Positions 2,401-4,152 of a DNA stretch of 11,668 nt are shown one piece after another. Position 1 is the stretch's first letter. Each line of letters begins with the position of its first letter. The translations under genes and the position numbers were made by a program. This DNA is from Kiloniellales bacterium (GTDB taxonomy: Bacteria > Pseudomonadota > Alphaproteobacteria > Kiloniellales > JAKSDN01), in contig JAKSDN010000682.1 of NCBI GenBank assembly GCA_022360075.1, positions 1-11,668 on the forward strand. Reading direction: 5' to 3'. The notes under the pieces were generated by a model. That model had not been told where the DNA came from. It made no database searches and saw only the letters and a list, made by a program, of their open reading frames with translations.

Positions 2401-2460
2401 GGCGGCGACCCGAAAGGACGGGGCCTAGTACCCACTATCACAAGAGGATGATACGTGTGA

Positions 2461-2554
2461 TCGCTGGTCTTGGCTTTTGGGTAGGAGAGGACGCGCCGGC
2501 GGTGTTGACCACCGTCAAGCCTTCTCGACGCCCGCCAAAAGCCAAGAGCAGCGA
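2461..2554. repeat. Left inner hairpin of the Y-shaped element
   Basis: The 20-base arms 2461-2480 and 2535-2554 pair with one mismatch (TCGCTGgTCTTGGCTTTTGG against TCGCTGcTCTTGGCTTTTGG). Inside, CGGTG and CACCG around 2510-2525 form a small apical stem with a 5-base loop, and GAGAGG/CCTTCTC can pair imperfectly between the two. Confidence 0.75.
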
Positions 2555-2562
2555 CCGTCAGG

Positions 2563-2656
2563 CGCCGCTCTCCGCCCCTCGGACGTCGTCGCGCGATTCT
2601 TGTGGTGGGCCACACCACGGCGAACCGCGCTCCTAGCCGAGGGGCGGAGAGCGGCG
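2563..2656. repeat. Right inner hairpin of the Y-shaped element
   Basis: The arms 2563-2582 and 2637-2656 are perfect 20-base complements. Within them GCGCG (2591-2595) can pair with CGCGC (2626-2630), and GTGGTG (2602-2607) with CACCAC (2613-2618) around a 5-base loop. The stem therefore continues almost to the tip. Confidence 0.75.
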
Positions 2657-2688
2657 TCACACGTGTCATCCTCTTGTGATAGTGGGTA

Positions 2689-4152
2689 CTAGTCACCCAT
2701 CGGATAGTTCGGCGCCTCGCGCGTGATCGGTACGCCGTGGACATGGCTCTCCCGCAGGCCGGAGGCCGTAATCCGCCGAAAGCGGCAGTTGGTCTGCATC
2801 TCCGCGACGGTGCCATTGCCGGTATAGCCCATGGCCGCCCGCAGGCCGCCGACGAGCTGGTGGATGATGTTCCCGACCGGCCCCTTGTAGGGCACCCGGC
2901 CCTCGACACCTTCCGGCACCAGCTTGAGCTGGTCGGCGACCTCCTGCTGGAAATAGCGGTCGGCCGAGCCGCGCGCCATCGCCCCGAGCGAGCCCATGCC
3001 GCGATAGGACTTGTAGGAGCGGCCCTGATAGAGGAAGACCTCGCCCGGGCTCTCGTCGGTGCCGGCCAGCAGCGAGCCGACCATGGCGCAGTCGGCGCCG
3101 GCGGCAATCGACTTGACCAGATCGCCGGGGAACTTGATGCCGCCGTCGGCGATCACCGGCACGTCCAGCTTGCGGCAAACCTCGACGGTGTCGAGCAGCG
3201 CGCTGAGCTGCGGCATGCCGACGCCGGCGACGATCCGCGTGGTGCAGATCGAGCCCGGCCCGATGCCGACCTTGATCGAGTCGGCGCCGTGATCGGCCAG
3301 GGCCTTGGCGCCCTCGCCGGTGGCGACGTTGCCGCCGATCACCTGGGCGCGGTTCGACAGCCGCTTGACGTCGCGGACGGCATCCAGCACGCCTTGGGAA
3401 TGGCCATGCGCAGTGTCGACCACGATGATGTCGACCTCGGCGTCGAGCAGGGCCTCGGCCCGGGCCAGACCGTCGCGCCCGACCCCGGTCGCCGCAGCGA
3501 CGCGCAGGCGGCCCTTCTCATCCTTGCAGGCGTTCGGGAAGGCCTGGGCCTTCTCGATGTCCTTGACCGTGATCAGGCCGACGCAGCGGTAATCGTCGTC
3601 GACCACCAGCAGCTTCTCGATGCGGTGCTGGTGCAGCAGGCGCTTGGCCTCCTCACGGTCGACGCCATCCTGGACCGTGACCAGATTCTCCTTGGTCATC
3701 AGCTCCTGCACCGGCTGGGTCTCGTCCTCGGCGAAACGCACGTCGCGATTCGTGAGGATGCCGGCGAGACGTCCGTTGCCGCGCTCGACCACGGGAATGC
3801 CGGAGATCCGGTAGCTTTCCATCAGCGCCAGCGCGTTGCGCAGCGGCTCGTCGGGATAGATGGTCACCGGGTTGACGACCATGCCGCTTTCGAACTTCTT
3901 GACCTTGCGCACCTCGTCGGCCTGCGCTTCGACGCCCAGGTTCTTGTGCACCACGCCGATGCCGCCGGCCTGGGCCATGGCGATGGCCAGGCTGCTCTCG
4001 GTCACGGTGTCCATGGCCGCGGACAGCAGGGGGATGCCGAGTTCGATCGAGCGGGTGACGCGGCTGCGGGTGTCGGCTTGTTTGGGCAGGATGGCGGATT
4101 CAGCGGGCTCGATCAGGACGTCGTCGAATGTCAGCGCCTCGCGAATCTCCAT
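2689..4152 (-). CDS. guaB: Inosine-5'-monophosphate dehydrogenase
   Basis: Cytosolic enzyme oxidising IMP to XMP with NAD+, the committed step of GMP synthesis. It has 487 aa, the normal bacterial length. The start MEIREALTFDDVLIEP is the classic GuaB N-terminus, and AGGGG sits about 8 bases before the ATG. A catalytic TIM barrel is interrupted by a tandem CBS (Bateman) module at about residues 93-205, which typically binds adenine/guanine nucleotides for allosteric control. IMP and catalytic landmarks are GIGPGSICTTR with the catalytic cysteine at 303, DGGIKFPGD, and the flap RGMGSLGAM followed by a DRYFQQ segment. The C-terminus ...NYPMGD ends in a TAG that coincides with the CTAG end of the downstream element. 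A longer reading beginning MYDAAPFRDQ is possible but would remove the Shine-Dalgarno and the family-typical N-terminus. rsmB follows on the same strand. Confidence 0.97.
   Translation of the reverse strand: MEIREALTFDDVLIEPAESAILPKQADTRSRVTRSIELGIPLLSAAMDTVTESSLAIAMAQAGGIGVVHKNLGVEAQADEVRKVKKFESGMVVNPVTIYPDEPLRNALALMESYRISGIPVVERGNGRLAGILTNRDVRFAEDETQPVQELMTKENLVTVQDGVDREEAKRLLHQHRIEKLLVVDDDYRCVGLITVKDIEKAQAFPNACKDEKGRLRVAAATGVGRDGLARAEALLDAEVDIIVVDTAHGHSQGVLDAVRDVKRLSNRAQVIGGNVATGEGAKALADHGADSIKVGIGPGSICTTRIVAGVGMPQLSALLDTVEVCRKLDVPVIADGGIKFPGDLVKSIAAGADCAMVGSLLAGTDESPGEVFLYQGRSYKSYRGMGSLGAMARGSADRYFQQEVADQLKLVPEGVEGRVPYKGPVGNIIHQLVGGLRAAMGYTGNGTVAEMQTNCRFRRITASGLRESHVHGVPITREAPNYPMGD

Follow-up and report, generated by a model that had tools for sequence, protein, structure and literature searches.

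The window, that is, the whole stretch of DNA analyzed here (11,668 nucleotides of a contig from a Kiloniellales bacterium), carries guaB (2689-4191) and rsmB (1096-2400), both identified by Pfam and both on the minus strand, and between them lies a 268-bp element (2425..2692, assigned to neither strand) that has relatives elsewhere. The other window genes identified by Pfam, which encode a GNAT acetyltransferase, a Usp protein, an FtsJ methyltransferase, and Ppx/GppA, are all on the minus strand as well. A tRNA-Gln gene is located at 6976-7049, and the G+C content of the stretch after it drops from about 0.67 to 0.50 (6976-11668); the ORFs tested in this part of the window, such as one of 595 amino acids (7178-8965), matched no Pfam or PHROGs family, and the region looks like a genomic island. 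The ORFs that cross the element are long frames antisense to or overlapping guaB or rsmB and were judged spurious, which leaves the element with no coding capacity.

At 268 bp, the element is short and bounded by terminal inverted repeats, as a miniature inverted-repeat transposable element (MITE) is. The left outer arm (2425..2460, plus strand), which starts with CTAGTACCCAC, pairs with the right outer arm (2657..2692, minus strand) at 35 of 36 positions, the same count as in an earlier note on this DNA. Both ends read CTAG, and the presumed duplicated TA target within them occupies 2426..2427 on the left and 2690..2691 on the right, as judged from the sequence and from the TA duplications of two relatives (L199 and L201; see below). 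The minus-strand 3' end of guaB reads ...GGT GAC TAG, and this TAG stop codon (2691-2689) comes from the right CTAG of the element. Once the element and one CTAG are subtracted, 24 bp remain between the guaB stop codon and the GTG of rsmB. In a Kiloniellaceae MAG (locus L001 of genome G001), whose RsmB is 54% identical to that of the window over the best segment, the guaB-rsmB gap is 21 bp and the element is absent.

Inside the outer arms, the arms of the left inner hairpin (2461-2480 and 2535-2554) pair at 19 of 20 positions and those of the right inner hairpin (2563-2582 and 2637-2656) at 20 of 20, again in agreement with the earlier counts. With 20-nt flanks, the element folds at -210.2 kcal/mol, compared with -121.6 +/- 6.5 for 100 dinucleotide shuffles (z = -13.6), none of which reached its stability; alone it folds at -197.7, and the most stable of 41 further 268-nt tiles reaches -152.3. 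The outer pair (41 nt, 93% complementary) ranks first among the 69 inverted pairs listed for the window. The near-complete fold claimed previously is borne out by these values, but its description as a Y-shaped three-way junction needs amending, since a very small fourth arm, CC (2555-2556) with GG (2561-2562) and 4 nt between, makes the junction four-way. This central mini-hairpin between the two modules described next (CC-GTCA-GG, 2555..2562, plus strand) corresponds to columns 144-145 and 154-155 of an alignment of 34 full elements (A3), in which 92.6% of the fourth-arm cells are paired.

The interior consists of a left hairpin module of 83 positions (2466..2548, presumed working strand plus) and a right module that is its inverted copy (2569..2651, presumed working strand minus). 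The covariance model R1 gives them 77.1 and 83.4 bits, respectively, both being among the 28 hairpins, cut from BLAST relatives, from which R1 was built. In the alignment of these 28 hairpins, the stem letters vary freely, and the invariant letters belong to one internal loop, whose 5' side contributes the AGG of TAGGA and whose 3' side contributes the ACG of GACG. In the left module of the window, TAGGA lies at 2482..2486 (plus strand), its AGG being invariant and its T being replaced by C in 11 of 34 left modules, and GACG lies at 2527..2530 (plus strand) in invariant or nearly invariant columns and could form tandem G.A mismatches with GGA. Sequence and alignment place the corresponding motifs of the right module on the minus strand, with TAGGA at 2631..2635 (TCCTA on the plus strand) and GACG at 2587..2590 (CGTC on the plus strand).

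A BLAST search with the whole element found relatives in 14 of 61 genomes of the order, mostly as partial matches. With R1 (E <= 0.001), members were found in at least 39 of the 61 order genomes, 50 of 385 genomes sampled from the class, and 9 of 299 from the phylum; these tallies are lower bounds owing to the stricter filters of Infernal, with at most 75, 11, and 15 candidates scored per genome, respectively, and the order figure is partly so by construction because R1 was built from members of the order. All 75 scored candidates matched in each of G004 and G035, which indicates at least 75 matches per genome and makes the family a sizeable genome component there. G001 was positive in the order, class, and phylum searches and has 25 R1 matches elsewhere, though its guaB-rsmB gap lacks the element. 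The proposal that the element acts on the guaB-rsmB transcript therefore finds no support as a conserved role, as L001 lacks the element there and other copies are elsewhere; an effect on the guaB transcript in the window is possible, since the element adjoins the guaB stop codon. Copies of the 36-bp end are rare: a 19-mer taken from it had no exact match among the genome contigs searched, and the window end TAGTACCCACTNTCA is present in 7 of the 61 order genomes. No match was found for the window element among plasmids and phages or for four relatives among plasmids. Three IMG/VR matches to a 16-mer look like chance, with no partner arm within about 500 nt around each.

Among 103 two-hairpin entries (loci having two hits and no more, spaced 60-140 nt; one place or more, L020/L062 among them, entered the count twice), 100 are inverted pairs and 3 have both hairpins in the same orientation. 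Elements with such same-orientation hairpins (L200, L211, and L049) look as though an in-place inversion had turned one hairpin around. Whole elements are mostly 261-279 bp long, with the longest being 297 bp. One-hairpin elements also exist (e.g., L010, L130, L178, and L214), and at least 15 of 26 inspected lone R1 matches have a second hairpin within the same outer stem, mostly too divergent for R1. In G036 (C7), an arm pair is only 102 bp across, and no hairpin match was found at its locus, L213. By their outer ends, the elements form unrelated-looking groups, including CTAGTACCCACT, CTAGTGTGGTGG, CTAGAGC, TTAGGGCCTGTTG, and TATACCAAGG, among others, while the interior remains recognizable, and end groups coexist within one genome, as in G007 with its CTAGTGTGG, TTAGCACCC, and TACCAAGG ends. 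In three loci of G004 (L157, L162, and L174), the outer arms are of differing subtypes (a GGAGCG versus an AGGTCC block), as if subfamilies had swapped ends. In more distant members (L082, L086, L087, L091, L095, and L103), the right-hand hairpin is larger and the mini-hairpin is often C(C)CTTCGGG-like, and several of them share letters such as GCGGCGTCGCGGGC and CGTA...TACGC. At about 1712-1768 of L018 (G026; L037 is the same place), another long palindrome (TAGATCAAATTATCTGCGC...) replaces the left part of the element and stops at the TAG of the hairpin, and GATC-rich palindromes adjoin copies in G028 (L024 and L029); these palindromes may represent a second repeat family, perhaps one that targets TAG. 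A survey of neighboring gene orientation with a GC-frame heuristic (15 convergent, 30 divergent, and 49 tandem; n = 94) was judged unreliable because frames ran into the elements.

Pairing is strongly conserved despite sequence divergence. For A3, a MAFFT alignment, 40 elements were chosen and six in which both modules were typed alike were left out, which gave the 34 elements. In A3, 88 of 93 base pairs show changes on both sides that preserve pairing. The share of paired cells is 88.4%, whereas shuffling gives 60.6% and sliding the partner gives at most 42.7%; the consensus structure was, however, derived from A3 itself, which favors it over the slid versions. The covariation score is 0.691 versus 0.200, and none of 500 shuffles scored as high. 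The consensus structure extends from end to end of the element, and the outer stem as well as the two hairpins show covariation. A MAFFT alignment of single hairpins (n = 28) gave 89.6% versus 65.4% paired cells, with 22 of 25 pairs changed in this way. The earlier note had regarded a single copy without homologues or covariation as an argument against both a MITE and a conserved RNA; both relatives and covariation exist.

For ten elements taken from four related genomes, the two flanks were joined and compared with six genomes. For two elements of G039, L199 and L201, the joined flanks are uninterrupted in G038 (96% and 88%), and the empty targets are TTAG and CTAG, respectively, which indicates that TA was duplicated at both; L199 also differs from its empty site by a T/C difference at the left edge. 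For L208 and L215, the empty sites are 3 nt shorter than the summed flanks, which is consistent with a 3-bp TNA duplication. For L205 and L206 the alignment across the junction was poor, and for L202, L210, L211, and L214 the matches listed from the six genomes included no full-length empty site. The TACC-type elements thus seem to duplicate 3 bp, mainly on the basis of the empty sites of L208 and L215; their flanks alone show a weak excess of identical triplets (19 of 42, versus 13.4 +/- 2.7 when shuffled), in a count that includes at least two faulty rows (L127, mis-anchored, and L130, without a right triplet). The window element ends in CTAG on both sides, and the two relatives that duplicated TA (L199 and L201) are of the CTAG type. 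The empty sites in sister genomes and the TA insertion of CTAG-ended elements identify the family as MITEs, and the window element, whose copies and empty sites were seen in relatives, is almost certainly one of them. The structured MITE family suggested previously has accordingly gained dispersed relatives, inverted ends, empty sites in relatives, and strong covariation.

CTAG ends with TA duplication are typical of IS630, and TNA duplication is a trait of some IS5-family elements. The CTAG/TA habit is echoed for RUP in passages of PMC2229807. Some ends of the family resemble the CTAG ends of IS630-type loci in the order; compared with the window's ends, those of the loci examined are similar, and none is identical. 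In one such locus (L143), a 1054-bp element with a DDE_3 match is bounded on each side by CTAGAGCGTTTC, and two others have similar ends, CTAGTGTTCCG (L152) and CTAGTGGAT (L153), which are among the four best inverted repeats listed for these loci and not the top one. In the 61 order genomes, TAGTACCCACTNTCA forms 10 paired sites spanning 268-304 bp and 7 unpaired hits, and no autonomous insertion sequence or parent IS630 with these window ends was found. Likewise, a TACCAAG-type end had matches in four of five genomes searched, and AGTGT-type ends were searched in three genomes, in both cases with no pair about 1 kb apart.

The mismatches in the stems differ between the two hairpins. Elements were oriented with the left-type hairpin first, and G.T and A.C mismatches, which are one event viewed from two strands, were counted on the plus strand in A3 rows in register, after helices with less than 70% Watson-Crick pairs had been dropped (6 of 34 for the outer helix, 9 and 8 for the left helices, and 7 and 1 for the right helices). 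The left stems have 43 G.T and 6 A.C mismatches, whereas the right stems have 4 and 22 (Fisher's exact test, P = 6.8e-10), in rows that are related to one another. The right-hand excess of A.C runs counter to the bias of the method, since the consensus fold permits G.U on the plus strand. The difference persists for distinct position-types (left 17/6 and right 3/14; P = 0.001) and in a subset of 19 rows that keeps roughly one row for each end family (23/3 and 2/12; P = 6e-6). It is strong in CTAG/TTAG-type elements (23/2 and 0/16) and weak in TACC-type elements (20/4 and 4/6; P = 0.03 for cells), in which distinct events are not significant (12/4 versus 3/5; P = 0.1). A count on all modules with a looser alignment goes in the same direction and is weaker, with 98 versus 53 events (77 clusters), or 66 versus 40 (39 clusters) and 36 versus 29 (10 clusters) with coarser clustering. 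This mirror-image bias, which neither a single RNA cloverleaf nor neutral decay predicts, suggests that the two hairpins are in all likelihood selected as single-stranded folds of their own TAGGA strands, that is, on opposite strands. The earlier phrase "mobile RNA-like element" is apt in part: the interior does seem to be maintained as a single-stranded fold, though by way of two hairpins on opposite strands and not of one RNA.

Taken together, we consider it reasonably probable that the element is a MITE whose twin opposite-strand hairpins act as RNA to make its insertion tolerable. As a MITE, a short, non-autonomous transposon without genes, it would use its outer arms as double-stranded transposase sites, and an IS630-type transposase acting in trans most likely brought it to the TAG stop codon of guaB, given that CTAG ends with TA duplication are the habit of IS630/Tc1-mariner elements. 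The interior would comprise a single type of hairpin, about 83 nt long, in two inverted copies with the mini-hairpin linking them, each hairpin being selected as the single-stranded fold of the strand reading (T/C)AGGA...GACG, so that each strand has one working and one silent copy. Transcription from a neighboring gene through the element would then always yield one correctly folded hairpin, whose two internal loops may be displayed to a nuclease or RNA-binding protein of the host, and the insertion would be tolerable in whichever orientation it occurs. Whether RNA or single-stranded DNA is the exposed molecule is itself an even call.

The hairpins might instead act as single-stranded DNA, a reading that we regard as rather unlikely, with the TAGGA-strand hairpin exposed on the lagging-strand template or in a cruciform and bound by a host or transposon protein that aids excision, copying, or protection, by analogy with the Y1 transposases that bind REP or IS200/IS605 hairpins. 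Opposite-strand selection fits this reading equally well, REPINs too are inverted hairpin pairs with compensatory changes according to parts of PMC3116915, and Y1_Tnp matches are present in 25 of the 39 order genomes with hairpins versus 4 of the 22 without (those four with 72-123 bits). However, a clear hairpin match was found at only 1 of 40 fetched Y1_Tnp loci (L250, 44.1 bits, about 1.5 kb away), and at least 11 of 37 scanned Y1_Tnp loci have their own GGGGTCAG or GGGGACA inverted repeats, which resemble the TIRYT type with the motif GGGGWSAS described in excerpts of PMC3733652; in addition, the empty sites display TA or seemingly 3-bp duplications.

Two further readings concern how the fold arose and what it is. 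If the palindromes were kept only by a mutational process, such as template switching that copies arm onto arm, the fold would have no function; differences between copies of an arm exceed mismatches within copies in 7 of 8 genomes (the exception is G036, and a single mis-anchored row inflates the values for G007), and hairpins do flip occasionally (the same-orientation entries above). Such a process should nevertheless erase non-palindromic internal loops, yet AGG and GACG are the most conserved letters, and alone it would not be expected to yield the mirror-image G.T bias of the two hairpins, which makes this reading improbable. It is more doubtful still, to the point of being very improbable, that the whole 268 nt form one folded RNA cloverleaf, either riboswitch-like or a small RNA. 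The element-wide consensus structure and the covariation of the outer stem and both hairpins are what such an RNA would show, but a single transcript should keep G.U on the same strand in both hairpins, whereas the right one shows 4 G.T and 22 A.C; the outer arms have no clear asymmetry (25 G.T and 15 A.C), and no Rfam match at the gathering threshold covers the element.

Returning to a MITE with twin opposite-strand hairpins, the element represents a well-supported and widespread MITE variant that is apparently undescribed, with the opposite-strand selection of its hairpins as an unexpected property. Bacterial MITEs are usually seen as worn-out insertion sequences with an interior of little significance, whereas here the interior is constant and the transposase ends change, which offers a testable case of a bacterial mini-transposon bearing a selected single-stranded structure. 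The G.T/A.C strand test is a tool that is also applicable to REPs, CIRs, and other unexplained palindromes. A more far-reaching and rather unlikely reading takes the hairpin of about 83 nt for a structured nucleic-acid module of a new kind, one that moves among unrelated transposon ends, both TA-duplicating and apparently TNA-duplicating, across the Alphaproteobacteria; dyad doubling would give one active copy per exposed or transcribed strand and thereby make the module self-insulating and orientation-proof, and it may be catalytic or have a dedicated host factor that binds it.

A search of the window against Rfam 15 gave nothing at the gathering threshold over the element and only the tRNA elsewhere, and among 11 relatives (E <= 1) there were three subthreshold hits, one of them over a hairpin (MIR5534, 26 of 79 bits). 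No earlier description of such elements was found among the titles and abstract openings listed from the open-access literature, and a term search of PMC10969869 gave no occurrence; a prior description, e.g., in subscription papers, is possible. As described in parts of PMC2229807, the CIR repeats of Caulobacter and Brucella are likewise alphaproteobacterial and have two inverted-repeat arms with a linker and TA ends, but they are about 110 bp long with a conserved GANTC and no end-to-end pairing, whereas the elements here are about 265 bp long with long end pairing. GANTC is scarce in the family (9 seen versus 30.8 expected, in 7 of 34 elements, with no column common to more than 2), and this scarcity, together with the lack of a conserved GANTC in the terminal loop, argues against an assignment to CIR, which was rejected.

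The head-to-head dimers of CGTC-tagged REPs are also similar: according to PMC3733652, they are mostly alphaproteobacterial inverted pairs with no known transposase, the CGTC tag lies beside a stem of 8-9 bp, and some REP dimers reside inside palindromes. The family shares the tag, as GACG on the module strand, and the stem length, but departs from these REPs in stem start, loop, and tail. The REPs start their stem with AT and have a loop of 4-5 nt and mostly a CCA tail (same excerpts of PMC3733652), while the modules here usually have a GC stem start and a second internal loop topped by a further hairpin, in addition to an extra outer stem and transposon-type ends. REPIN/RAYT systems have in common with the family the inverted hairpin pair and compensatory change (PMC3116915, in part), but the GTAG tag occurs in only part of the modules here (GTAGG in 15 of 34 left modules), the RAYT gene is unlinked, and the ends are of the transposon type with target duplication. 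A RAYT partner was considered and rejected, as it co-occurs with the hairpins with no physical link and the co-occurrence may be clade driven. One Y1_Tnp locus (L231; G058, C1 3506110-3517353) has four Y1_Tnp matches in about 11 kb, two of them with an internal stop, and repeated GGTGACAGTGCAC inverted repeats. IS630-related MITEs, such as RUP with IS630-Spn1, resemble the family in being small and gene-less, with inverted ends and a TA target, and in apparently being moved in trans, as far as sections of PMC2229807 describe them; here, by contrast, there are long covarying inner hairpins with conserved loops, and the same interior is found also with ends that seemingly duplicate 3 bp.
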